Source: Paludibacteraceae bacterium (lineage in GTDB: Bacteria > Bacteroidota > Bacteroidia > Bacteroidales > Paludibacteraceae). Taken from it: DNA of 34,116 bases. This document shows positions 7,576 through 20,840 of the stretch, in pieces. Position 1 is the first letter of the stretch. Each line of letters begins with the position of its first letter. Under the pieces are notes generated by a model. It searched no databases. It had not been told where the DNA came from and saw only the letters and a program-made list of their open reading frames with translations. Location: positions 1 to 34,116 of the forward strand of contig JAKSKU010000024.1 in assembly GCA_024401565.1 (NCBI GenBank), in the 5' to 3' direction. The translations under genes were made by a program, and so were the position numbers.

Positions 7576-7612
7576 AAAAGACGGAGATGGATACCCATCC
7601 CCGTCTTTTTTA
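7576..7612 (+). terminator. Intrinsic terminator after psd-pssA
   Basis: AAAGACGG and GATGG pair with CCATC and CCGTCTTT around a short loop, followed by a run of T (TCTTTTTTAT). It closes the phospholipid operon and separates it from the vWA/tubulin operon. Confidence 0.9.
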
Positions 7613-7644: not shown

Positions 7645-7690
7645 TTTGCTTTTATCATCAAAAAACATTAATATTGTAAACTATGTTTAC
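7645..7690 (+). promoter_or_regulatory. Promoter and dyad of the vWA/tubulin-like operon
   Basis: TTTG (7645-7648) and TAATATTG (7669-7676, one mismatch to TAnnTTTG) are 20 nt apart. A 6-bp palindrome GTAAAC-TAT-GTTTAC (7676-7690) overlaps the end of the -7 element and the expected transcription start near 7683. That is where a repressor would compete with RNA polymerase, though it could also be a small leader hairpin. Confidence 0.6.
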
Positions 7691-7705
7691 TACAATTAAG
7701 ACGCA

Positions 7706-9313
7706 ATGAGAAATAGGAGTTTAAAGTATTTATTTGTGACATTGATGGCACTTTTGGCAGAGACTCTTTTTGCCCAGTCGCCACTCCACTATCTTGAATC
7801 GACATTTCCTCGTTTAACTGAAATATACAAAGATGACATAGACAAAAGTCACGCTCACTACGTCTTCGCCATTGATGTGTCCGGTTCAATGAACGCATAT
7901 GAGCCAACAATGGTTCCGCTTCTTAAAAACTTCATACAGGCGTTGCCCAACGGAGATAAAGTGACGGTAATCCCTTTTGGAACTGAGATCAAGAATCCTA
8001 TGGGTTTCTCTGGCATCATCTCAAATGAGATGAAAAGCACGTTGTGTTCAAATATGGAACGTCTGTATCGCAACCCTAATTACGATCAGTTGTTTTGCGA
8101 CCATACAAACATCTACAAAGCGATAAACGGTATATCAAACGCAGTGATAACAAATTCGGAATACAAGGTCAATATTCTGATTCCGTTGACCGACTTCCTT
8201 AATAACATTCCAAAAGTGCCGCCTCATCAGTTCAACAAGAGACGTCTGACGGCTGAAGAGTTATCAGAGATGAGAAGCCAGCTTGCTTCCGCAATCAAAG
8301 GTAGCTATGTGCGATGTGTGGCTGTAGAGCTAGGCAATGAAACTGAAAACAGACAGCAGAAGGAGTTTTGCTTGGATCAGTTGCAGAACAACGTGTTTGA
8401 TGTGGCAGAAAACGGTTTGGAGATTGTTTCGACCAACAACTCAAAAGAGGCTATCGAACAATGGTTTGAGCAGTTGAGACGCGATATTCTTGTCGTCAAA
8501 CTACGTTCCATCATCGATTCAGAGAACAAAGCCGGCAAAGTAAGGATGTCCACAAAGATGGATATCGACGGTAACACCATCTCCGACATCACTTGGAGTC
8601 CCAACCGTCTATACTCAAAAATCAAGATCGACTCCACATTCCTTCGCCAGCAAGGGTTTGTCTTTGTCAACGACACAACAAACTATCAAACAATGCGTGA
8701 CACCATCCTGCATCTAGAACTTGGACAGGCGAAACACCAGAATTATGGATTTCACTATTTGAACGACAGTCTGTCGCTTGGAATCTCGCTGCCAACAGAT
8801 TTCGATTCCGAACTGGAGAAACTAGGCATAAGCAAACCTTTGTCGTCGACCAACACAGAAGAGAACCAGTGGATTTTCACATTCTTCCTTCCTTTCTGGG
8901 TCACATGTTTGGCTGTCTTCTTGATTATCCTTTACATAATATTGGCGATAAGAGCTGCGTCTATCAATGCAAAGGAAAAAATGAGCGGAAAAATCGTAGT
9001 GTCTGACGCCACTGGAGGAGAAATATTCACAAAGAAAGTGGCTGAATGCGATAAACTCACTATCGGAAAAAGCGCAGATATCAGAGTTGACGATGCAGAA
9101 TGGACACTATGCGTGACAAAGGTGAAACCATCACCGCTGCTGCTATTCAAGAAACCATATTTTGAATGGTCGGCTACAAAAGGGTACGTAGGATCAAAGA
9201 TGGGCACAACAGGCTGCATCAACACAAGAAACGATAATTTATTGAAAGTAAGCTGTGGAGGTCGCAAATCCGACATCACACATAAAGTAAGCTTACGTCT
9301 TAACACGAAATAA
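7706..9313 (+). CDS. Membrane-anchored von Willebrand factor A domain protein
   Basis: First gene of a five-gene operon. Residues 1-23 form a cleavable signal peptide ending LFA/Q. A vWA domain covers about 45-270, with MIDAS motif DVSGS (Asp57, Ser59, Ser61), a threonine in CDHTNIYKAI and an aspartate in IPLTDF. After a beta-rich region, a TM segment lies at about 391-415, followed by positively charged residues and a 120-residue soluble tail. This predicts a periplasmic vWA domain and a cytoplasmic tail. The tail contains LTIGKSADIRVDD, which resembles the first strands of an FHA domain (LtIGR...DI.L.D), with Lys for Arg. vWA domains bind ligands through a metal ion; no ligand can be read here. 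The next gene begins 14 nt later. Confidence 0.88.
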   Translation: MRNRSLKYLFVTLMALLAETLFAQSPLHYLESTFPRLTEIYKDDIDKSHAHYVFAIDVSGSMNAYEPTMVPLLKNFIQALPNGDKVTVIPFGTEIKNPMGFSGIISNEMKSTLCSNMERLYRNPNYDQLFCDHTNIYKAINGISNAVITNSEYKVNILIPLTDFLNNIPKVPPHQFNKRRLTAEELSEMRSQLASAIKGSYVRCVAVELGNETENRQQKEFCLDQLQNNVFDVAENGLEIVSTNNSKEAIEQWFEQLRRDILVVKLRSIIDSENKAGKVRMSTKMDIDGNTISDITWSPNRLYSKIKIDSTFLRQQGFVFVNDTTNYQTMRDTILHLELGQAKHQNYGFHYLNDSLSLGISLPTDFDSELEKLGISKPLSSTNTEENQWIFTFFLPFWVTCLAVFLIILYIILAIRAASINAKEKMSGKIVVSDATGGEIFTKKVAECDKLTIGKSADIRVDDAEWTLCVTKVKPSPLLLFKKPYFEWSATKGYVGSKMGTTGCINTRNDNLLKVSCGGRKSDITHKVSLRLNTK

Positions 9314-9327
9314 AAAGGTATAATAAT

Positions 9328-12300
9328 ATGGCAAACGAAAAACACATTTTCATCGGTTTGGGAGGTTCAGGCTGCCAAACAGTAACACAAATCAAGGAGA
9401 AGGTTTATGCTAACCGTTATCCTACACATACAGCTACAAAATCTCGTTTGGATGCGATGAACGAATCATATCGCTTCCTTTTCATAGATACTGACCAACG
9501 TGACATAGATCAGGCGAACAAGCGCAACCGCAAGGATTTCGAGGAAGGCAGAGTGCCGTTCATCAACCCACAGTCGGACCTTGTAAACCTTGGATTGGCA
9601 AACCCTCAGGCTATCTACTATGAGGCAACACAGGACACATCAACATTGATCAACAAGAGAATATTGGAGGCATGTTCTCCAGAACTTGCAGTGAAGATTC
9701 CTGATCAGCCACTAGGATTCGGAGCAGGAGCGTTCCGTATCAAATCACGTATTGCATTCGCCCACTCATTGGCTGATTTCCAGACAAAGCTACAGTCCGC
9801 TATATCTTCATTGAACGATGTCAAGAACGTCGGCGGAGAGAGCTGCACCATCTTCTACTGGGTAGTAGGTAGCTCTAACGGTGGTACTGGTAGTGGTATC
9901 GTCAACGACGTGCTATACCATATCAACCAGGTACACAAGCAGGTGGTAGGCGACGGTGACCCACAGCTAGTGCTAATCATGTATATGCCTAAAGTATATA
10001 TCGACTGCAACGCGACAGAGGAGAAATACGCGTTGAACGCATACGCCGTATTCTCAGAGGTACAGGCATTCAAAGAGATGAGCCAGAGCAGCCAGCAGAA
10101 CACCGTAATGCATAGAATGGCATTCGTCAACGACTATAATCTGATTGACAGCAAACGCAAGTATTGCCCATTCTACTACATGATTCCTATTGATATCCAG
10201 ACAGATAAGGGAACATCTTTGGGCAACACACACGTGATGTACCACAATACAGCCGAGATGATCTACATCTTGCATCACGGCGCAGGCGGAGAGACATTCC
10301 GTTCGGATATCGACAATTACATGAATGACATCATGGAGAGAAATCACGAAGATTTCTTGGTTCCGATGGGATATGTTCAGCTACACAAGCCAACTGACCA
10401 GTTTGCCCGCTATTTCAGAAGAAGATTCGAAAGAGACGTGCTTCGCACCTGGCTTCTTAACGCTGACGCGAAAGAGAATGCCATTCCAGACAGTCAATTG
10501 CCAGCCCTTTACAAGAAATTGTTCCGCGAACTAGACCACAAGATTCCAGACACAGTTGCAAAACAATTGGTTGGCGGCTCACTAAGCGACTTGGAGGACG
10601 AGGCTCTCGACCCTTCAATCATCGCAGGCAAGAAGGAGCTTCCTTCTGTTTTGAAGTTAAACAACGTGTTGACTACATTGGAGACTATCGAGCAAAACGT
10701 GCGCTCGGCATCCAAAACAGTCGAGAAGAGATCAGAGACCAAAGAATTGCTTGTCAGTGGCGCTTGGAAGCAGGCAGAAGAGTGGATACGCGAATATGGA
10801 CTTATCTACGCAATCAATGCCGTGGATGCAGTCAGAACATATGTAAGAGGCATCTACGAGCAGCAGGAGAACTCAACTAAAGACCGCAAAGACGAGCTTG
10901 ACAGCAAGTTTGAGGAGTTGAAGAAACTTGAGGCAAAAGCTGCAGACATCACCGTTCTAGAGAACATCGGAATCAGCAGCAACAATGCCCAGATCAATGA
11001 GTATCGCAACGCTTTGGAAGAGTACGTTAATGAGTTTACAGACCACGTCATACTAGATTGGGCACACGACTTGATCCGCGATTTCTGCAACAACGAAAAG
11101 ACAGATGAACTTTCAAAGTTGAAGTCACAGTTGATGATGATCAAAGACAAGGCGTCAGAGATGAACGAACAGGCCGTACGCTATTACGACCGTTTGGCTA
11201 CTGAGTTTGGCAACACTGCCTTGGATGTGACAACTGTATACCTTCCTATGCTGAAGGAAATCTGCAGTGGAGACGGTTGGAAAGCAAACAACTTCTTCAG
11301 CCGCTGCTACCGCAACATCATCGGTGCTGACGAAGACAGAGCAGAGACTCCAAACCGTGATGACTTGAGCAAGCTTATCAAGGAAGGCATCTACGAGACA
11401 AAGAACGAAAAGCGTCTTGAGCAGTTGATGGCCAACCAATATATTCTTATTGAGAAAGATAAGAAAGCGAAGAACGGAAAAGAGAATATGATCGAAGAGT
11501 GCCGTTTCTTCACAAACCCTACTCTTGAGGAGCGTAAGCCAGAGGCCATCATCGAAGATTTCATCGACTTCGCGCAACAGGCTCTCGACGTAGCAACAAG
11601 AGAAAACAAGAACATCCAGGAGAATTGGGCAAACAAGAAGGTATCACACTTCTTCCATGATCTGCCCAATGATCAGAAAGATGAGGTACGCAAGAGTTTG
11701 AGCCCTGCATTGTTCTTCAACTACAACACCGCTCGTATCGAAGTGATGAAGAAAGAGGAGCACATGGTGTTCGTGGCTCAGGATATGGACCTCGCAAAGG
11801 AGATGCTTGGATACGAGGAAGGAAATATCCGTCACCGTTATGTGTCGGGTGGAGACGCTAACTCCGCATTGGTACTTAAGTCAAAATACGGTTTGTCATT
11901 CCGCGACTACCGCATCTACGACAACATCGAGTCGGTATACAACAACGCGACATTCCGTGAGAAATACCACTTCCACCATGATTTCGCTCAGTTCCTTGGA
12001 AAGATTACTCTTAATGATCTTCCTGACGAGGTGCTTGCACAGCACAGAACATTCGCGAAGATGTTGATTTTGAAGGAGTACGAGAAAGATTTGGAACCAT
12101 TGTTCTACAAGGATGAGTTTGACACAGAGTCATACGAGACATCAATGTACTTGGTAAATCCAAAGAACCCGACTTCGTTTGAAGTGGCTCGTCCTGAAGC
12201 ATTCACAGTACACAAAGGATCTCTTTGCCTACGTAAGATAGAGAACGGCAAGAAGCTATACGATGAAGTGACAGGAGCAGACTTCAGCATCCAGTTTGAC

Positions 12301-12612
12301 GAATACTTCCGTCTATTCTACAACAGAAGATACAGCGAGACACTCGACCGTATGCTTCAGGCAATCCTTCGTCAGAGAAAGACAGCGTTGGACTCAAATG
12401 GCAGCATCATCACCGATAAAAACGGCAAGGCTGTGATCTACGATGGAGAGCAGATCTTGAAAGACGGATACGTTGAGAAACAGAAGTCAGTATTGAAGAC
12501 ACTTTCTACATTGAAACAGCAGAGCGCTACAGAAGATGAGAAGCGTCTTTACAATATCTTCTTCAATATCATCCGCAACGAGTACGACACTGTACACAAG
12601 TTTATAAGCTAA
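9328..12612 (+). CDS. Giant tubulin/FtsZ-like GTPase-domain protein
   Basis: The 1094-aa product starts with HIFIGLGGSGCQT (residues 6-18), a tubulin-type nucleotide loop, followed by the strand YRFLFIDTD (48-56), GFGAGAFRIKSR (130-141) and the tubulin signature loop NGGTGSG (184-190), which differs from GGGTGSG only at the first position. These features fit the Tubulin-like (Tubulin_2/FtsZ-like) family, not FtsZ itself, which is about 400 aa. Residues from about 350 onward are mostly helical, with charged stretches near 450-620. I do not see a clear T7 catalytic NxDxxE motif, so GTP hydrolysis and polymerisation are uncertain. No TM segment: cytoplasmic, perhaps recruited to the membrane by its operon partners. 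Confidence 0.85.
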   Translation: MANEKHIFIGLGGSGCQTVTQIKEKVYANRYPTHTATKSRLDAMNESYRFLFIDTDQRDIDQANKRNRKDFEEGRVPFINPQSDLVNLGLANPQAIYYEATQDTSTLINKRILEACSPELAVKIPDQPLGFGAGAFRIKSRIAFAHSLADFQTKLQSAISSLNDVKNVGGESCTIFYWVVGSSNGGTGSGIVNDVLYHINQVHKQVVGDGDPQLVLIMYMPKVYIDCNATEEKYALNAYAVFSEVQAFKEMSQSSQQNTVMHRMAFVNDYNLIDSKRKYCPFYYMIPIDIQTDKGTSLGNTHVMYHNTAEMIYILHHGAGGETFRSDIDNYMNDIMERNHEDFLVPMGYVQLHKPTDQFARYFRRRFERDVLRTWLLNADAKENAIPDSQLPALYKKLFRELDHKIPDTVAKQLVGGSLSDLEDEALDPSIIAGKKELPSVLKLNNVLTTLETIEQNVRSASKTVEKRSETKELLVSGAWKQAEEWIREYGLIYAINAVDAVRTYVRGIYEQQENSTKDRKDELDSKFEELKKLEAKAADITVLENIGISSNNAQINEYRNALEEYVNEFTDHVILDWAHDLIRDFCNNEKTDELSKLKSQLMMIKDKASEMNEQAVRYYDRLATEFGNTALDVTTVYLPMLKEICSGDGWKANNFFSRCYRNIIGADEDRAETPNRDDLSKLIKEGIYETKNEKRLEQLMANQYILIEKDKKAKNGKENMIEECRFFTNPTLEERKPEAIIEDFIDFAQQALDVATRENKNIQENWANKKVSHFFHDLPNDQKDEVRKSLSPALFFNYNTARIEVMKKEEHMVFVAQDMDLAKEMLGYEEGNIRHRYVSGGDANSALVLKSKYGLSFRDYRIYDNIESVYNNATFREKYHFHHDFAQFLGKITLNDLPDEVLAQHRTFAKMLILKEYEKDLEPLFYKDEFDTESYETSMYLVNPKNPTSFEVARPEAFTVHKGSLCLRKIENGKKLYDEVTGADFSIQFDEYFRLFYNRRYSETLDRMLQAILRQRKTALDSNGSIITDKNGKAVIYDGEQILKDGYVEKQKSVLKTLSTLKQQSATEDEKRLYNIFFNIIRNEYDTVHKFIS

Positions 12613-12661
12613 GTTTATAGACATTAACAATCGGGGATAACCCATTAATTAGAAAGAACCA

Positions 12662-15382
12662 ATGCTTCCTCTTTGGATTATTGATCTAACAAATAACACA
12701 GAAAGGCGACGACATTTCAGGTCGCTGCTCGGAAAATTGCAAGGCGTCCTCCTTCAGGAGGATGCCCAAGCATGGTTGGACGACGAGGCAAAGCATGACA
12801 ATCAGCAATGGCTATACACCCATTTCGACAATCCGTTTATCGAGACATCGCTCAATGACGATGTGACGATGGCTGAAGACATTTATAACTTCCAGGAAAA
12901 AATTGTCCGTGCAGGACAAGGCTTTGTCAAGATGTTAAGAAAATCAAACGTCGACAGTTCCGTCACTCTCAACATTGTAGTGCTTGGCGATTCAACGGAG
13001 TCGTTATCGCAACTTACATTTCCTTCAATAGCTGTAATGATACAGAAGGAGAAAGGAAGAATACTGCCTAACCATATCCATCAGGGCATAGCCATTGTCG
13101 GAGCTTACTACGTACCATCAGACCTCAACAGTTTGGATGTGCTCGTACGCCAAAAAGTCTATCTTTCTCTACGTGAGATAGATGTACAGCACAACATCCC
13201 GTCTATCAGAGGATACGACAAGATGTTCTTCTATCAGGATATCCAAAACCGTACGGAGAGCTATTTCCCACTTCTGTCTCAAAAAGAGCAGGCGGAGTAT
13301 CTGTTGCAGTCGATGATACACCTCTACTATGCATGCGACAAAGTGCACCCGCTTATCAACGGAAGCAGTTCAGACGATTGTTTCTATTTTGCATTGGGAT
13401 GCTCTTCCGCATTCTTTGACACCGAGCTGCAAGACAGAATAGAGAACGCGTCGGTGATGAACCATATCATAGATGTTCTCGAAAAGGAGGGCGACCTCGA
13501 ACAGCCTGATGAAAAAGATGAGTTGATTGATTTCGACAGAATAAGCGCAGAAAATATCATCCGTAAATTCCAGGATGTCGATTTCGATCTGTCAGACGCC
13601 AAAATGGAGGAACCCAACCCGCATCCTATCGGCGACTTCCTGCATAGAAAGCTGAAACGTCTGTACTATACCAGATATTTGAAATACTATCCGGCCAATC
13701 TTAGAATCAAGATTAACGATGTGATCAGCCGTGAGTCGAAAGACGTGCTGGAGGATATCAGCGCCACAAGAAAACGCTATCAATCAATCTATGCCGAAAC
13801 GACGTTGCCAGACGCCATCGAAAAACAGTTGATGTCGAGCGACAGTCATATAGGATGCCTTACCCGCATTGTCAGAAATCTGAAACTATTCAAGACACAG
13901 ATCGGCAAGATGAGGGTGAAGGTAAAAACACAAGTTGAGCAGAACATCTGGCACCATCTCTTCGAGCATAATGTGCCTAAAAACTTGAAAGATGAGTTTG
14001 AGGCCTATCACGAAGCATACAGCGAGGATAACGATGGCAAGAGAAACTCCCATAAGTGCGAGGAGATGAAGCAAGCCGCAATGAAGGATTTCGTAAACCT
14101 TCTACAGCAGGAAGCGACATTCCTAAGCCGATTAGGACGCGCTTTTCTGATGGGTACGGTAGCTGTGTTCGTATTTGTGCCGTTCCTTACAATGGTGGCC
14201 GAAGACATTTACTATTTCGATAATGTCAAAGCAAACGCCGTCTACTGGTCAACACTATTCTTTATCATACCTCTGCTTATCCAATTCGTCTGCATGTTCC
14301 TATATCATAGAAACAAAGGCAAGAAGGAGAGACGATTGAGAGCATTCTATCTGCACGATGCCTACGCACGTATCGCAAACAGAATAGAGTCGGAGTCGTA
14401 TGGCTTGTACGACTATATGCAGAGCCTATGCGACGAATATTTGAAACGTTGCAAATGGATAGAGAAGGATATTCGTCCGATAGACTTGAACGACCTGTAT
14501 ACAGGTACGGATCTGCCTATCACTATGTTCAACCAGCCTGTTATCCGCGGCTCATTTGCCAACAACAAGATGATCGACGACTTAGACAACGAGGCCCGCG
14601 AGATATACGTCAAAAGGATACCGCGTCGCGTCAACATTCTTGATGATGACGACTGCCATCTGCTTATCCACTCTTACAAAAATGAGGTCATGCAGCTTTT
14701 CGGCAGCGTAAAAGTCAAAGAGAAGAACGAAAGACGTTTCGACGAGAAACTTGGATATAAAGTATTTGTCTCAAACGCTGAGCGTCTGCAGGAAGAGCAG
14801 GAATTCTGGTCAGAAGAGAGAAATCTGTTCAAAACCAACTTGAAAGCGCGTATCGAAAAAGATATGCTGCCACGCAAGAACCCGACAATCGGAGAAAAGG
14901 TGTATGCTTATGCCGAGAGTCTCGACGACCACAATGTGCTTATTCCATTGATACGCGCAGCCGCCACTAACGGAGAATTCACATCTTTGGCAAACACAGA
15001 GCATGGAGACGTGAAAGCAAACGATCACCGTGTGCAATCACTGTTTGAGAACGAGATGCCAAACAACGCCACACAGTTCCAGTTTGACTCCCACATGAAC
15101 ATTCTCAACAAGTACATTTTTGTCACACGTTGGAGAACATTCGACTCATTGGCACTCAACAGAATACTTCCGTCTGAAGACTTCGACATGGAGATCAGAC
15201 AAAGCCGTGTGAACGATGAGGATTTGAACATTTTCTACAATTCACCGTCTTCCATCATCCTATGGGCTATATGCCAGAACGACAATTCAAGCGAATGGCT
15301 AAAACTGTTCGACAGCACAACGTTTGGAATATCGATGGAGAAAAGAAATGTTTATATTAAGAGATTAAACAGCAAAGATTGA
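12662..15382 (+). CDS. Two-TM operon protein with tubulin-like-fold-resembling N-terminus, unknown function
   Basis: No family recognised. The 906-aa product has two TM segments (about 492-512 and 525-548) separated by a short loop, with about 490 residues before and 350 after, so most of it should be cytoplasmic. Residues about 100-240 follow the order seen in the preceding tubulin-like protein: a strand LNIVVLGD, a loop, a helix, the strand QGIAIVGAYYVP, then FFYQDIQNRTES and a helix with EYLLQSMIHLYYA. These parallel YWVVGSSNGGTGSG, LVLIMYMPK, FYYMIPIDIQTDKG and AEMIYILHHGA, but the glycine-rich GTP loop is replaced by GDSTESLSQ. I infer a degenerate, non-GTP-binding tubulin-like domain anchored to the membrane. 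The gap to the upstream gene is 49 nt and to the downstream gene 4 nt. Confidence 0.7.
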   Translation: MLPLWIIDLTNNTERRRHFRSLLGKLQGVLLQEDAQAWLDDEAKHDNQQWLYTHFDNPFIETSLNDDVTMAEDIYNFQEKIVRAGQGFVKMLRKSNVDSSVTLNIVVLGDSTESLSQLTFPSIAVMIQKEKGRILPNHIHQGIAIVGAYYVPSDLNSLDVLVRQKVYLSLREIDVQHNIPSIRGYDKMFFYQDIQNRTESYFPLLSQKEQAEYLLQSMIHLYYACDKVHPLINGSSSDDCFYFALGCSSAFFDTELQDRIENASVMNHIIDVLEKEGDLEQPDEKDELIDFDRISAENIIRKFQDVDFDLSDAKMEEPNPHPIGDFLHRKLKRLYYTRYLKYYPANLRIKINDVISRESKDVLEDISATRKRYQSIYAETTLPDAIEKQLMSSDSHIGCLTRIVRNLKLFKTQIGKMRVKVKTQVEQNIWHHLFEHNVPKNLKDEFEAYHEAYSEDNDGKRNSHKCEEMKQAAMKDFVNLLQQEATFLSRLGRAFLMGTVAVFVFVPFLTMVAEDIYYFDNVKANAVYWSTLFFIIPLLIQFVCMFLYHRNKGKKERRLRAFYLHDAYARIANRIESESYGLYDYMQSLCDEYLKRCKWIEKDIRPIDLNDLYTGTDLPITMFNQPVIRGSFANNKMIDDLDNEAREIYVKRIPRRVNILDDDDCHLLIHSYKNEVMQLFGSVKVKEKNERRFDEKLGYKVFVSNAERLQEEQEFWSEERNLFKTNLKARIEKDMLPRKNPTIGEKVYAYAESLDDHNVLIPLIRAAATNGEFTSLANTEHGDVKANDHRVQSLFENEMPNNATQFQFDSHMNILNKYIFVTRWRTFDSLALNRILPSEDFDMEIRQSRVNDEDLNIFYNSPSSIILWAICQNDNSSEWLKLFDSTTFGISMEKRNVYIKRLNSKD

Positions 15383-15386
15383 CAGT

Positions 15387-17234
15387 ATGTTCGAAGATAT
15401 AAATAAAACATATTTTTTGCTTGCAGTAGTGGGGATCACTCTCCTCTACCTCTTCATCCGTCGTTTGAAGGAGAAGACGCGTATTTCTATCTCTGAACCG
15501 GGGAAATTTCTAAGAGACCTTGGATTGCTTAGCATCGTGGACGACGGTTCGCTGATGGAGCTCATGTTAAGCAACGTAGAGCTAGACAAACCAGTAGCCA
15601 GAGTGATGTCGGAGAACGAGAACCAGCCCAACGTCTGGATACTCGACGGTGACTTGGATGACGACTTCGACTCCTTCGACTACAGAATGCGAGGATACAT
15701 AACTCCAGAAGGATTCATCTACAAACAGTTTTACAAAAACGACAAACCTGTCCTTGTGGGCTATACCGCCAGACTGAAAGAGCCAAACAAACCGACAATA
15801 AAAGGCAAACGTTCGTGGACTTCATTATGGCTGGAGAGCGAACTGTACGCTTTTGAGGTCAATCCAGACGGTTCAATACCAGACAAGCCTCTTACAAAAA
15901 GAGTCGGATACGCTTGCAAGTCAGGCATCGCGTTCAACGGCAAACGTCCTGTAACATTCGAGGCAAAGGCATGTGCCACTGCCCTATTGTATCAGAAATA
16001 CGGTCCTAAGGAGAAGAAGAACATCATCTACCGCGAGCCAGTCTACGGCTGGAACGACACCGCGCTGCTGACAGCCATCGTCTACAGCGTGATCTTTATG
16101 ATTCTATACTTCACCTACACATGTATGCTCAACAAGCCTTTGCTTGGAAACGATTTCTATGCCGTTTTCATCCTTTACGGTTGCTATTACGCGCTGTGGG
16201 CCCTGATCAGACAGTTCAAGATCGACAGCATAGAGAACTCGCACAGCATTCAGCCGCATCTCGACATGCTCAACAAAGGTCTAGGATTGAAAAGATTCGA
16301 CTCTGCTATCGCTATTCTATGCTCTATAGCCGCATACTACATTTATTTCTTCATGGACTACGATCTGCTTCCGCTGATCGGAGCCGTCATGTATGGAATT
16401 TCCCATAATGCGTTGGCCAACAAAATACGCAGACCTTGGAAGATCGTCACTAATTTCGATGAGGAGAGAAACATGAACGATGAATCCTATGAAATAATGC
16501 CTTTTGCATCGATGACACCGCCTTCGGGAGAGATGGTTCGCGTGTTCGACTGGGATCTGGATTCATCTAACGGCAGAAAGCTACACGGAAATCTGACCGT
16601 GCATTTCTCTATGGATCTTTACGAGCAGATGCGTACGGAGAATCCTTTCTATTCACAAGACACCCAAAAAAGCAAACATGTGCGTGTGGCCGAGATGATA
16701 CACAGAATGCTTAACGACCATATCTACTCCGAACGAGTACGCTATATCGCCAGCTACATAATCAATGAGGCCAACTTTGCCAAACTGGATGAGATCAACC
16801 GTCTGCAGTTCGCATTGGATTTCGTGCAGGAGCCTAACATTGAATACGTACAAGACAGGTACAGCAAAAGCATACAGTATGCCCCAGAGTACATGAGATA
16901 CCCAGACGAGACACTATACGACCAGGAAGGTGACTGCGACTGCAAATCACTGCTTGCCGGTATGATTCTGTACTACATGGGCTACAAAGTGTTGTTCATC
17001 TCTTCAGCGATCAGGCAGCACACAGCCATCGCCATCGAGTTTAAGGAGAACGACTGGCTAAGCACCGTCTTCTCATCATACTCATCTTTCGAAAACGCAA
17101 TAATCGTACACAACCATAGAAAATACGTTTATTGCGAGACAACAGGTGATGGATTCAGAATCGGACAGCTTGTGGACGAAATGCGTGTGGACGATTTCGA
17201 GACAAGAATTGAAATAGAAAAAGAGGAGGAATAA
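15387..17234 (+). CDS. Five-TM protein with C-terminal transglutaminase-like cysteine peptidase domain
   Basis: The 615-aa product has one N-terminal TM (about 7-24) followed by FIRRLKEKTR, a soluble region, two TMs at about 228-275 and two more at about 307-345, followed by NKIRRPWK. Positive charges after TM1, TM3 and TM5 put the soluble regions, including the C-terminal domain, in the cytoplasm. Residues about 400-600 resemble the transglutaminase-like/cysteine-protease fold: EGDCDCKS gives Cys517, QHTAIAIEF gives His545 and YVYCETTG gives Glu584 as a candidate triad. Family members are mostly proteases or peptide-crosslinking enzymes. It starts 4 nt after the upstream gene. Domain call is good, substrate unknown. 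Confidence 0.8.
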   Translation: MFEDINKTYFLLAVVGITLLYLFIRRLKEKTRISISEPGKFLRDLGLLSIVDDGSLMELMLSNVELDKPVARVMSENENQPNVWILDGDLDDDFDSFDYRMRGYITPEGFIYKQFYKNDKPVLVGYTARLKEPNKPTIKGKRSWTSLWLESELYAFEVNPDGSIPDKPLTKRVGYACKSGIAFNGKRPVTFEAKACATALLYQKYGPKEKKNIIYREPVYGWNDTALLTAIVYSVIFMILYFTYTCMLNKPLLGNDFYAVFILYGCYYALWALIRQFKIDSIENSHSIQPHLDMLNKGLGLKRFDSAIAILCSIAAYYIYFFMDYDLLPLIGAVMYGISHNALANKIRRPWKIVTNFDEERNMNDESYEIMPFASMTPPSGEMVRVFDWDLDSSNGRKLHGNLTVHFSMDLYEQMRTENPFYSQDTQKSKHVRVAEMIHRMLNDHIYSERVRYIASYIINEANFAKLDEINRLQFALDFVQEPNIEYVQDRYSKSIQYAPEYMRYPDETLYDQEGDCDCKSLLAGMILYYMGYKVLFISSAIRQHTAIAIEFKENDWLSTVFSSYSSFENAIIVHNHRKYVYCETTGDGFRIGQLVDEMRVDDFETRIEIEKEEE

Positions 17235-17236
17235 AA

Positions 17237-18289
17237 ATGAATAAACGTACAATAACTACATTGTGTTCTGTCTCGGGTATATTCTTGGCAACAGCGCTAC
17301 TGGTAGGTAACGTCTACAAGAAAAGCTTGAGCAGACCTCCTATACGCCACGCAGAAATTCCCGATTCCACCCTTGACTTTCTAAGAGGAATCATCCGTAT
17401 GGGAGGCCACATGGCTGGCGTCAAAGTTGAAATCGACGGACCTTTTGACTGGGAAAACGAAAAAGACTTGGGCAACACCGAAGAGGATTGGGCTAAAGAG
17501 GAAGACGATTTCTTTATCGTCTACTACAAAAAAGATAAAGACGCGGTATGGCAAGGACATGCCTTGAACACACTAAAGGCCGCCAACGGCAACATCACAC
17601 CGCTTATCAAGCTAATGGGCAAGTACTACTACCCTAGCGATGCAAACGGAAGAAAACTGCCTATTTATCTGACAACTTCAGTGGAGCAATATGGAGAAGT
17701 CGCTAGCAAACTTTTAGGTGGTCCTTACGATTCAGGCTCATCAATCGGTGTGACGATATCACAGGTGGGAAGAGCAGGCTGTAAGGCGTCTATTGTGCTT
17801 CACCCTATTTGCTTCGTCGACCCGCCAAGAAGCCACAACGGCTATGTGTCGGTGCTGATGCATGAGATGAACCACTACACATTCATGTCGAACATCGATA
17901 TCGGCAAGAATGTCAGCTTCAGGAACTGGGAGATTGAGGGTATTGCAGACTACTGTTCCAACAATTTCATCGAGGATGTACATACGATCACAGATGAAAG
18001 CCGTATCTCATACATAGACAAAGACTGTAATCTATTGGAAGATTTCGACTCACCTGGCTCTGAGTATTGGGCAGGAGAATCATACTTCAGATTTATGGTT
18101 GAGGAACGAGGAGAGAAATTCCTGAAAGAATTCCTTCAAAAGGCATACGTGACAAAAGTGGAGAACACTTTCGCCCAAATGGATCTCAACCCAAGCAAAG
18201 AGCATACCAACTGGGTTGAAAACTTGAAAAAGAAGTCAGAAAAGCAAAAAGAAGAGTTTTTGTCACAGTTGCAAAACATGTCTAATTAG
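17237..18289 (+). CDS. Signal-anchored gluzincin-like metallopeptidase
   Basis: Last gene of the operon, 2 nt after the upstream stop. The 350-aa product begins MNKRT followed by one hydrophobic helix (about 8-26), a signal anchor or signal peptide, so the rest is predicted periplasmic. The zinc motif is HEMNH (His209, Glu210, His213) followed 20 residues later by Glu234 in the WEIEGIADY context. This is the gluzincin arrangement (HExxH then EGxAxY) seen in peptidase MA/M1-like enzymes, although this protein is much shorter than M1 aminopeptidases. Conserved zinc ligands and catalytic Glu suggest activity. Substrate unknown; the operon context suggests processing or turnover of a periplasmic component such as the vWA protein, which is inference. 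Confidence 0.8.
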   Translation: MNKRTITTLCSVSGIFLATALLVGNVYKKSLSRPPIRHAEIPDSTLDFLRGIIRMGGHMAGVKVEIDGPFDWENEKDLGNTEEDWAKEEDDFFIVYYKKDKDAVWQGHALNTLKAANGNITPLIKLMGKYYYPSDANGRKLPIYLTTSVEQYGEVASKLLGGPYDSGSSIGVTISQVGRAGCKASIVLHPICFVDPPRSHNGYVSVLMHEMNHYTFMSNIDIGKNVSFRNWEIEGIADYCSNNFIEDVHTITDESRISYIDKDCNLLEDFDSPGSEYWAGESYFRFMVEERGEKFLKEFLQKAYVTKVENTFAQMDLNPSKEHTNWVENLKKKSEKQKEEFLSQLQNMSN

Positions 18290-18450
18290 ACAGAATTGAA
18301 TAACTCGAGAAGAGCGGGAGAAATTAGCCTTCTATAGAATAAAAATGGAGATTATATAGCAGTTGCCCCAAATGAGCGTATAAATAAAAAGCGTGTGTTG
18401 GACAACTCGTGTATAATTACTATAAAAATTCTGGATGGATGTTTATCAAT
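18290..18450. other. Non-coding spacer after the operon
   Basis: No credible gene. The stretch around 18391-18412 (GCGTGTGTTGGACAACTCGT) resembles the first bases of the dispersed repeat at 30546 (GCGTGTTTGTCCAACTCGT), so it may be a small repeat fragment. Confidence 0.4.
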
Positions 18451-18483
18451 AAAAGCCGTCGACTGTGGTTGACGGCTTTTTTC
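18451..18483 (+). terminator. Intrinsic terminator of the vWA/tubulin-like operon
   Basis: GCCGTCGAC pairs with GTTGACGGC around a TGTG loop, extended by AAA/TTT, and followed by TTTTTT. It is about 160 nt downstream of the last gene. Confidence 0.88.
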
Positions 18484-18680: not shown

Positions 18681-20840
18681 CTATTCCTCGTCTTCGTCAA
18701 ACACTTCTTCATCATCACTATCCTCGTCAGAGTATCCTTCGTCATCAAAATAGAAGTCGACATATTTCTTCTCACTGAAATTAAAATTAATGACGGTACC
18801 TTCACTTATATTTAATTTATCACTATCTGAAAGGCACTCTCCTTCAACAAATAATTGAACTTTGCCTTCACACGGCACGCCGATACAAAGGTTCTTGAAA
18901 ATATATTCGTCGGAAAGGTCGTCTTCGTCAAAATCGTTTATAATTTCACCTCCATCGCAACAACTGTAATTAAGCGCATCATCCACAAGATTTTCGTCTT
19001 TTCCATCGAATTCAGTGCACAACCACAGTAGTTGTTCTACTTCTTGTTCGTTCAACTTGTCTTCACCTTTTCCATAACGGGTGATCTTTAATTTTTCCCA
19101 CTCTCCGAACATTCTCACATAGGCGTTGTCTCCCACATGCCATTCATATTCTGTCAGTTGTTGTTTTGCGGCAGCATCGCCTTGCGCAGCAAGTTTAGTG
19201 ATTTTTTCGATGTCAATTCTCTTTTCCTGATCGCCGTCAGGCTCATTTAAAGAATCACAATCATTGAAACAACCTTCACCTAATGTAATGGAATCAGACA
19301 GATTGATAGATGTCAAAGACTTACAATTCATGAAACAGATTATTCCTATAGTCGTGATAGTGTTGGGCAAAACGATACTTGTCAAAGACTTACATGCATA
19401 GAAACACCCACTAGGCAAAGAACTGATTGAATTTGGCAACTTGATATCAGTTAAAGACTCACAGTTATCGAAACAATGAGCCCCTAAAGACGTGATAGAA
19501 TCTGGCAAAATGATACTTGTCAAGGACCTGCAGTCCACAAAGCAGTAACCTCCCAATGATGTGAGCGAATTTGGCAACTTTACCTCTGTTAAAGATTTGC
19601 AACTATTGAAACAGTTTTCACCTAACTCCTTGATAGAATCAGGCAGAGAGATACTCTTCAAAGAATTACATTCACAGAAACAAGACTCTCCTATGAATGT
19701 GAGCGAGTTAGGTAGATTGACGCTTGTTAATTTCCTACATTTGTAGAAGCAACTCTTTCCAATTGACGTGATTGAATCAGGAAGGTTTACCTTTTCTAAC
19801 TCTTTACACTCATAAAAACACATATCAGGTAGTTCGACAATCGTATTCGGAAGAGTTATACTGGTCATATCAGATCCCTTTGACAATCCGTGAAAAGCAA
19901 AGCGATCTAACGCTGTCACCTTATATTTCTTCCCCTTAACAGCAATCTCTTCAGGAATAACCACATCATTCATTCCTCCATAATATTTTATCACTTTACA
20001 GGTATACCTAGAGGTGATCTCATATTTTACCTGGTCAATAACAATGTCATCTTCAAATGCCTTATTGAGCCATTTATGGTACAGTTCACTGTTTTTCTCA
20101 ACACCATTTCCACAATGATAGCAGTCTGCTACAACCTTACAAGCTTCGGTATGTCCTTGTTCTGCGGCTTTAAGGTACCATTTAAACGCCAAGTCGTAGT
20201 TTTCAGGAGTACCATAACCAAAACGATAGCAGCCTCCCAATTCATATTGTCCTTCAGCATCTCCTTGTTCTGCAGCCTTGGCGTACCATCCCAATGCTTT
20301 TTCTAAATCTTTTTCAACACATTTGCCATATCGGTAGCAATTGGCCAAACTGCATTGAGCTGACGCGTAGCCTCGTTCCGCACTTTTAGTATAGCATTCT
20401 ATGGCTTTCTCATCATCTTGATCTACGCAATCACCATTTTCATAACAGACACCTATTATGCGAGTAGACTCGTCATCGCCTAGTTCTGAGGCTTTACTCC
20501 ATAGTTCAAAAGCTTTCTTTAAGTCTTCTTCTACACCTTCACCATCATAGTATAAGAAACCTAAGTTGCGCATAGCTTTCGCATTTCCTTGTTCAGCAGC
20601 CTTGGTGTACCATTCCAACGCTTTCGCTAAATCATTAGCATCGTCATAACAGTACCCTATACGTCTGTTTATCTCAGAGTCGTTCTGATCAACCAATTTC
20701 AGGTAAAGTTCAAGGGCTTTCCCATAATCTTGTTCTACACCTTCTCCATAATAATAACAGTCTGCCAATTTACGTAAAGCAACGACGTCGCCCTGTTCGG
20801 CGTTTTTTGTAAGTTCTTTGATGTTAATTTGATTTTCCAT
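18681..20840 (-). CDS. Sel1-repeat / BspA-type leucine-rich-repeat fusion protein
   Basis: The 719-aa protein has three parts. Residues about 5-265 hold about seven Sel1 (TPR-like) repeats with the pattern A..GxAxAxxxLGxxYxxGxGVxxD, which mediate protein contacts. Residues about 300-540 hold about ten BspA-type (LRR_5) repeats of 23 residues with the pattern SLTSIxLPDSITSLGxxCFxxC. The last 170 residues include one more Sel1-like start, a beta-rich region and a strongly acidic tail (DDEEVFDEDEE). No signal peptide, so a cytoplasmic scaffold or adaptor is more likely than the surface adhesin role of classical BspA proteins. It stands alone, with its own promoter and terminator, convergent with the vWA/tubulin operon. 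The tandem 69-bp coding repeats invite expansion and contraction. Function unknown. Confidence 0.85.
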   Translation of the reverse strand: MENQINIKELTKNAEQGDVVALRKLADCYYYGEGVEQDYGKALELYLKLVDQNDSEINRRIGYCYDDANDLAKALEWYTKAAEQGNAKAMRNLGFLYYDGEGVEEDLKKAFELWSKASELGDDESTRIIGVCYENGDCVDQDDEKAIECYTKSAERGYASAQCSLANCYRYGKCVEKDLEKALGWYAKAAEQGDAEGQYELGGCYRFGYGTPENYDLAFKWYLKAAEQGHTEACKVVADCYHCGNGVEKNSELYHKWLNKAFEDDIVIDQVKYEITSRYTCKVIKYYGGMNDVVIPEEIAVKGKKYKVTALDRFAFHGLSKGSDMTSITLPNTIVELPDMCFYECKELEKVNLPDSITSIGKSCFYKCRKLTSVNLPNSLTFIGESCFCECNSLKSISLPDSIKELGENCFNSCKSLTEVKLPNSLTSLGGYCFVDCRSLTSIILPDSITSLGAHCFDNCESLTDIKLPNSISSLPSGCFYACKSLTSIVLPNTITTIGIICFMNCKSLTSINLSDSITLGEGCFNDCDSLNEPDGDQEKRIDIEKITKLAAQGDAAAKQQLTEYEWHVGDNAYVRMFGEWEKLKITRYGKGEDKLNEQEVEQLLWLCTEFDGKDENLVDDALNYSCCDGGEIINDFDEDDLSDEYIFKNLCIGVPCEGKVQLFVEGECLSDSDKLNISEGTVINFNFSEKKYVDFYFDDEGYSDEDSDDEEVFDEDEE

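Follow-up and report, generated by a model that had tools for sequence, protein, structure and literature searches.

What kind of machine is encoded by a run of five genes in which a tubulin-family protein is followed and preceded by proteins with predicted membrane segments? The question is raised by positions 7,645 to 18,483 of a 34,116-nucleotide stretch of DNA, called the window here, from a Paludibacteraceae bacterium of the Bacteroidales (contig JAKSKU010000024.1 of assembly GCA_024401565.1). The five open reading frames (ORFs), P1 to P5, all lie on the plus strand, and ORF calling confirmed the layout proposed in an initial annotation of the sequence, with gaps of 14, 49, 4 and 2 nt between successive genes:

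7706..9313, plus strand: P1, 535 aa; signal-peptide-like N-terminus, von Willebrand factor A (vWA) domain, one transmembrane (TM) segment
9328..12612, plus strand: P2, 1094 aa; Tubulin_2/FtsZl1, tubulin domain of ~370 aa and a long C-terminal region
12662..15382, plus strand: P3, 906 aa; N-terminal ~300 aa possibly remotely tubulin-like, TM hairpin 494–540, long C-terminal region
15387..17234, plus strand: P4, 615 aa; multi-TM, C-terminal transglutaminase-like domain
17237..18289, plus strand: P5, 350 aa; N-terminal TM anchor 9–27, HExxH-(20)-E metallopeptidase-like domain

The answer proposed here, to which we give about an even chance, is that the locus would encode one inner-membrane machine of the FtsZl1–vWA kind, based on a tubulin, with a vWA sensor and with P3 as its membrane partner.

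Conservation and distribution of the operon

The survey comprised 39 contigs (37 loci, the window and L052), and the counts refer to the contigs reaching far enough; the 37 loci came from a scan of a named-genome collection with short patterns, for which eight aligned close relatives were the source, and are biased towards those relatives. P1 precedes P2 in 38/38, P3 follows P2 in 36/36 and P4 follows P3 in 36/36, with L079 beginning too near P2 for P1 to be judged and L093, L100 and L106 ending in or just past P2. P5 follows P4 in 26 of 36 contigs and is missing in the other 10. The five genes are thus conserved neighbours in the Bacteroidales, as had been supposed, though P5 less regularly than the others, and the operon exceeds chance because its order recurs in every relative with a sufficient contig. 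Judged by gene order, P1–P2–P3–P4 is the operon core and P5 is dispensable. The divergence of the five proteins is also correlated, with Spearman coefficients of 0.715–0.914 over 23–35 loci, the pairs not being independent.

In a set of 61 genomes, the window's own counted, P2 was present in 10 and P3 in 9. Within the family, the P3 profile matched 29 of 300 genomes; among 395 genomes drawn evenly from the phylum, it matched the window's own and no other. Across the order, 20 of 393 genomes gave a Tubulin_2 match, 16 of them above cut-off. Seven of eight same-genus genomes hold a divergent version, the P2 of which is 32% identical over the alignment (five aligned), and P5 is absent from all six of these versions whose contig extends that far. 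In one genome (G007) the divergent version and sufB lie on separate contigs, though SufB is 95% identical there, and in genus g27 the versions are 82–83% identical. The set therefore appears to have been inherited patchily, via loss, transfer or both. Insertion at an empty site was not demonstrable, the flanking CDP-alcohol transferase gene and sufB lying ~21 kb apart and in opposite relative orientation in G007. For 135 flanking proteins, which matched 157 Pfam families, the 25 most frequent families include no integrase or transposase, and P2 had no match in phage records, plasmid records or viral contigs.

By title, the 37 loci are mostly from Paludibacteraceae and other Bacteroidales metagenome-assembled genomes (MAGs), with single Muribaculaceae, Prevotellaceae, Fibrobacter and archaeal entries. 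Of the 37 titles, 22 mention a herbivore as host or sample source ('Lapin' and 'caballi' being read as hosts), a hint that the set is an accessory trait in this habitat, and seven more loci carry RUG or RUI labels, which we take to be rumen sets. Two loci lie in non-Bacteroidota bins, L080 in a Fibrobacter MAG and L106, with P1 and a partial P2 only, in an archaeal MAG; transfer or misbinning is possible for both.

The vWA and tubulin-family proteins

P1 scored above the VWA_2 and VWA_3 cut-offs in the Pfam profile search, and the residues of its metal-ion-dependent adhesion site (MIDAS), D57, S59, T134 and D163, are invariant in 33/33 aligned homologues (38 found). Hydropathy and charge point to a signal-like N-terminus, a TM segment at 397–415 and a C-terminal part of ~120 residues that is predicted to be cytosolic; the vWA domain is predicted to lie outside because the signal-like N-terminus is combined with a single TM segment with positive charge after it. 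The description of P1 as a membrane vWA protein was therefore sound.

The same can be said of the placing of P2 in the tubulin family on its loop NGGTGSG. Residues 7–372 match Tubulin_2 (PF13809) with E=1.1e-32 and 114 bits against a cut-off of 27, and the loop is found, as SNGGTGSG, at residues 183–190. With this match and the conserved neighbourhood, neither of the two outcomes that the initial annotation named as refuting it came about. The glycines of the T1 and T4 loops and the GTP loop GGTG(S/T)G are invariant in 22/22 aligned sequences (22 of 39 P2 loci), and P2, having no TM peak by hydropathy, is predicted to be soluble. Two tandem canonical ftsZ genes (L137 and L138, 442 and 457 aa) were located in the same genome at G000:C1 90,307–92,995, both with a GGGTGTG loop and an FtsZ_C domain and with an adjoining ORF that is FtsA-like by eye; with P2 counted, the genome holds at least three tubulin-superfamily proteins. 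With these two canonical FtsZ genes in the genome, P2 is probably not the tubulin used for division.

A candidate tubulin-like partner in the membrane

P3 matched no Pfam or NCBIfam family above cut-off, nothing consistent was found in the 35 of 36 homologues scanned, and a PDB sequence search with its profile gave no match up to 10. Two family-averaged TM peaks, at 494–512 and 522–540, agree with the two TM segments assigned earlier, and both ends of the protein are predicted inside from hydropathy and charge.

A remote likeness to tubulin was found when the N-terminus of P3 was compared by hhalign profile comparison with a broad Tubulin_2 set of 36 near and 14 distant sequences. The score was 35.4 (pair P 8.8e-4), and the alignment pairs P3 144–279 collinearly with P2 213–381, the latter half of the tubulin domain. 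For that pairing only, the score was set against 120 column shuffles (maximum 20.5) and 80 block shuffles (maximum 28.1), and exceeds them all; the controls gave pair P values of 0.12–0.34 against the P1, P4 and P5 profiles and of 0.44–0.66 with reversed profiles. Among 13 tested neighbours of other Tubulin_2 genes, the best likeness to P3 was seen in L064 (0.0078, 238 columns) and L066 (0.033), in each case in the protein encoded directly downstream of the tubulin gene. Adding these two P3-like proteins gave the best pairing of all, with a score of 39.1 and a pair P of 2.6e-4; the other pairings with them added scored 31.2, 24.5 and 17.2, the first of these to be compared with a maximum of 26.0 in 60 block shuffles. 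The glycine-rich GTP loop is missing in P3, where GDSTE or GNAEE stands near the aligned place. Of the second tubulin-like module proposed for the operon, what stands is a remote likeness in the N-terminus of P3; the GTP loop is not there, and several comparisons, given below, were negative. P3 may be a degenerate tubulin anchored in the membrane.

The surroundings of these other Tubulin_2 genes can be described briefly. Two further Tubulin_2 operons belong to the same taxonomic order: L064:2313-9394 encodes a vWA-like, a Tubulin_2 and possibly a P3-like protein, and L066:5428-15559 a TPR/aspartyl-protease, a vWA-like, a Tubulin_2, possibly a P3-like protein and a DnaJ protein. In L062:89-3769 a large protein upstream of the Tubulin_2 gene matches HSP70 at 2.8e-6.

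The hydrolase-like proteins

P4 had been given five TM segments, four of which (5–23, 225–243, 256–274 and 304–322) were resolved by a simple hydropathy scan; the fifth was not. Its candidate triad of Cys517, His545 and Glu584 is in place. The window's own P4 matched no Pfam or NCBIfam family above cut-off, and the PDB sequence search with the P4 profile gave nothing significant (best 0.86). At E up to 0.1, DUF553 was matched by 15/34 and Transglut_core by 11/34 homologues (34 of the 37 P4 ORFs), the DUF553 cut-off being exceeded by P4 of L086 and L107 and that of Transglut_core, just, in L086.

With the P4 domains located by motif, 18/36 operons have the catalytic Cys in one or more domains and 18/36 lack it, and the triad is not family-wide. 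Ser or Tyr replaces the Cys in all 12 other operons of the window's clade, and the whole motif is missing in six further operons. A single domain with Cys occurs in the window, L088 and six more, and tandem domains occur in L079, L080, L082, L083, L086, L087, L090, L102, L103 and L107, where C, H and E are kept in the second copy in 10/10 and the first copy is without Cys in five. With its Cys missing in half of the operons, P4 would therefore often be a pseudoenzyme. The tandem pair of L079 is divided over two ORFs, and the P4 homologue of L088 (L088:8922-12194, 1091 aa) carries an FGE-sulfatase-type domain at residues 384–577 (E 9.4e-29).

The metallopeptidase motif of P5, HEMNH209...E234, is likewise found at the residues given for it. 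HExxH occurs in 21/25 homologues, being lost in L079, L080, L090 and L102, and E234 in at least 90%. The window's own P5 matched no Pfam or NCBIfam family above cut-off; its homologues (25 of 26) gave weak, scattered zincin matches, with best hits in the four commonest families of 1.7e-4 to 1.8e-3. Peptidase_MA_2 in the P5 of L091 reached 18.9 bits against a cut-off of 32.4 and flagellinolysin 16.7 bits against 205 (0.0039), and nothing significant came from the PDB sequence search with the P5 profile (best 0.2, a collagenase). The idea that two hydrolases are defining parts of the set is weakened: from the loss of the P4 Cys (18/36), of P5 itself (10/36) and of HExxH (4/25), the chemistry of P4 and P5 looks accessory, not core.

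Transcription signals and surroundings

Three predicted signals frame the genes:

7576..7609, plus strand: terminator hairpin of the upstream gene, −19.6 kcal/mol, 0/200 shuffles as good
7645..7676, plus strand: promoter-like site TTTG-N20-TAATATTG, one mismatch, ~30 nt 5′ of gene 1
18454..18482, plus strand: intrinsic terminator hairpin with a T run after it, −18.8 kcal/mol, 0/200 shuffles as good

The predicted hairpin at 7576–7609 sets the operon apart from the preceding genes. Of the single promoter and single terminator claimed for the operon, the terminator is strong. The promoter candidate is weak evidence: it departs from the Bacteroidales consensus at one position, the window contains 12 sites of that quality where 5.1 would be expected, and a scan of the window turned up no exact match near the operon. 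A generic scan of the window stayed at chance level (promoters 17 against 20.5 expected, terminators 10 against 9.6), and the hairpin at 18454 was absent from its output. The GC content of the cassette is 0.448, against 0.417 elsewhere in the window, and its GC content at third codon positions (GC3) resembles that of the suf genes; a recent import therefore shows no sign. Directly past the operon, at 18681–20840 on the minus strand of the window, lies a gene for a large protein with Sel1 repeats and BspA-type leucine-rich repeats.

Relation to known systems

The FtsZl1 family, its vWA operons and the idea of membrane remodelling were introduced by Makarova & Koonin in 2010 (PMC2875224), so that this neighbourhood and proposal, rightly treated as known in the initial annotation, have been in print since then; a referee in the same paper favoured transport or signalling over membrane remodelling. 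As described in the accessible text of that paper, FtsZl1–vWA operons resemble the present one in an N-terminal tubulin domain with a GGTGSG loop in a protein of ~1000 aa with a long C-terminal region, in the vWA neighbour and in unnamed membrane proteins alongside. They differ in that neither a protein kinase nor a P-loop GTPase nor an OmpA family is found in the operon here, and in its additional genes, which stand in a fixed order: P3, the transglutaminase-like membrane protein P4 and the metallopeptidase-like P5. P3–P5 are set apart from the 2010 families by the main text; the supplementary families A1–A2 and B1–B9 may include some of them.

Tubulin_2 proteins are characterized as divergent, sparse relatives in the accessible part of PMC9871819. 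Neighbourhoods of tubulin and vWA genes were placed by Kaur et al. in 2020 in GTPase-centred conflict systems (PMC7159879); as far as its accessible text goes, the GAP1-N2 systems, which in Firmicutes have two tubulin genes, share with the present operon the tubulin and vWA genes and a membrane setting, whereas no GTPase/FNIII protein is found in the operon here, GAP1 not having been searched for specifically. In Synechocystis, phototaxis is impaired when sll0445 or one of its two neighbours is disrupted, and complexes with pilus-assembly proteins are reported (PMC9880817, accessible text); that cluster, sll0445–sll0447, is alike in holding a Tubulin_2 protein among several genes, whereas its partners have FtsA and DivIC domains and vWA is unmentioned in the text searched. 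No paper on the present five-gene set was found in the literature searched, the supplementary families of PMC2875224 lying outside that search. The kind of system, tubulin plus vWA, is known, and the full composition including P3 looks new as far as that literature goes.

Proposed mechanism and its alternatives

In the machine proposed here, P2 would act at the cytosolic face of the inner membrane, either by GTP-dependent polymerisation or as a scaffold switched by GTP. P3, which has a TM hairpin and no GTP loop, would serve as its stationary partner, or cap, in the membrane. The vWA domain of P1 would bind a peptide or surface ligand outside, in a metal-dependent way, and P1 would relay the ligand state through its single TM segment to its cytosolic tail. 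The transglutaminase-like domain of P4 would mainly bind a partner, given that half of the operons lack the Cys, and P5 would be an accessory membrane-tethered metalloprotease in the lineages that keep it, its action outside being a guess. The output would be the assembly or remodelling of an envelope-bound complex upon an outside signal. A more specific version is a trans-envelope cytomotive machine, in which an active, soluble P2 and a membrane-spanning end piece, P3, that has lost GTP binding are coupled to an outward, metal-dependent vWA sensor; this is put forward tentatively and seems somewhat doubtful. Eukaryotic alpha/beta tubulin and bacterial FtsZ–FtsA are examples of paired superfamily members, or of a polymer with a membrane anchor. 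Here, by contrast, the role of anchor would fall to a degenerate tubulin that has TM helices.

Several observations weigh against these readings. P2 stays below the cut-off of PF00091 (20.7 against 33 bits), and the PDB sequence search with its profile returned no tubulin or FtsZ chain (best 0.16, a chemosensory protein). For P3, the 12 profile pairs with tubulin gave pair P values anywhere from 0.00026 to 0.47, re-aligned versions coming out lower in score; the hhalign probability of a tubulin fold was 23–42% in the best pairings and never above 42%; full-length P3 showed no similarity to P2 profiles in hhalign, and its N-terminus gave no signal against the closest Tubulin_2 set alone (pair P 0.28–0.47), nor did the P3-like proteins of L064 and L066 match the tubulin profile (0.45 and 0.36). 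Membrane segments are predicted in P1, P3 and P4, as the initial annotation had it, and also in P5, and the topology drawn from them has hydropathy and charge as its only basis. The transglutaminase-like end of P4 would be inside only if the fifth, weaker TM segment is real, and the membrane side of P5 is uncertain because its anchor is flanked by positive charge on both sides (K+R 2.0 and 2.8). No experiment on any Bacteroidales member of the group was found in the literature searched. Finally, filament formation by P2 is uncertain because the T6–H7 region of FtsZl1 could not be aligned by Makarova & Koonin (PMC2875224), who, in the accessible text, found no counterparts of T6–H7 and raised the option that no filaments are made. 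That P2 is a GTP-switched monomeric or oligomeric scaffold that never forms filaments is on balance rather unlikely, the same authors pointing out that every superfamily protein characterised so far makes filaments.

The rival readings concern what such a complex would be for. It could be a conflict system directed against phages or other invaders, in which tubulin and vWA sense and set a threshold as in GAP1-N2 and P4 and P5 act as a proteolytic trigger. Tubulin-centred vWA neighbourhoods account for ~52% of GAP1-N2 systems in the accessible text of Kaur et al. (PMC7159879), which also reports two tubulin genes in Firmicutes and lists the FGE-sulfatase type, found in the P4 of L088, among effector domains; the patchy distribution of the set would fit as well. 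This reading is nevertheless unlikely. The five proteins have no P-loop GTPase or FNIII Pfam family, no GAP1-specific search having been made, and none of them matches a PADLOC profile at E up to 1; PADLOC matches are few in the 135 flanking proteins examined of 198 collected (MzaA 3; SspA, DndA, IetA and TRIP13 2 each; one for each remaining family near the operon, among 25 listed of 27), where, with no background set, an enrichment is possible. The flanking Pfam families are mostly metabolic or general (25 commonest of 157), and the silence of P2 in phage and plasmid records and viral contigs points the same way. Equally improbable is that the complex regulates or scaffolds a surface structure for motility, adhesion or secretion, with the tubulin positioning or powering envelope appendages. 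This reading draws on sll0445 of Synechocystis, the sole Tubulin_2 mutant data found, with its impaired phototaxis and reported pilus-protein association (PMC9880817, accessible text); the partners in that cluster differ, however, being FtsA-like and DivIC, the mutants are also altered in photosystem fluorescence, and around the present operon pilus and secretion families do not stand out (Por_Secre_tail 2/135 and ExbD 2/135 flanking proteins, among 25 of 157 families). A functional tie to the capsule-export genes that lie upstream in the window (Poly_export, Wzz/tyrosine kinase, CpsB) is suggested by nearness and is very improbable indeed, as a terminator lies in between, the upstream ORF pattern varies among relatives, and the CDP-alcohol transferase gene found ahead of the operon in the window is on a contig other than the operon's in G011 and G012. 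For the proposed inner-membrane machine of the FtsZl1–vWA kind, envelope remodelling, surface-structure control and conflict are all candidate cellular roles.

Implications

The membrane machine foreseen for FtsZl1 in 2010 has hardly been put to experiment; a strictly ordered unit of four to five genes with a candidate tubulin partner offers a minimal set for reconstitution. A pseudo-tubulin anchored in the membrane, should P3 be one, would represent a new way of fixing a tubulin-type polymer to a membrane. Should the trans-envelope cytomotive machine prove true, P2 and P3 would be a bacterial analogue of the alpha/beta pair in which the anchor itself evolved from tubulin, and P3-like partners would sit unnoticed beside other FtsZl1 genes.

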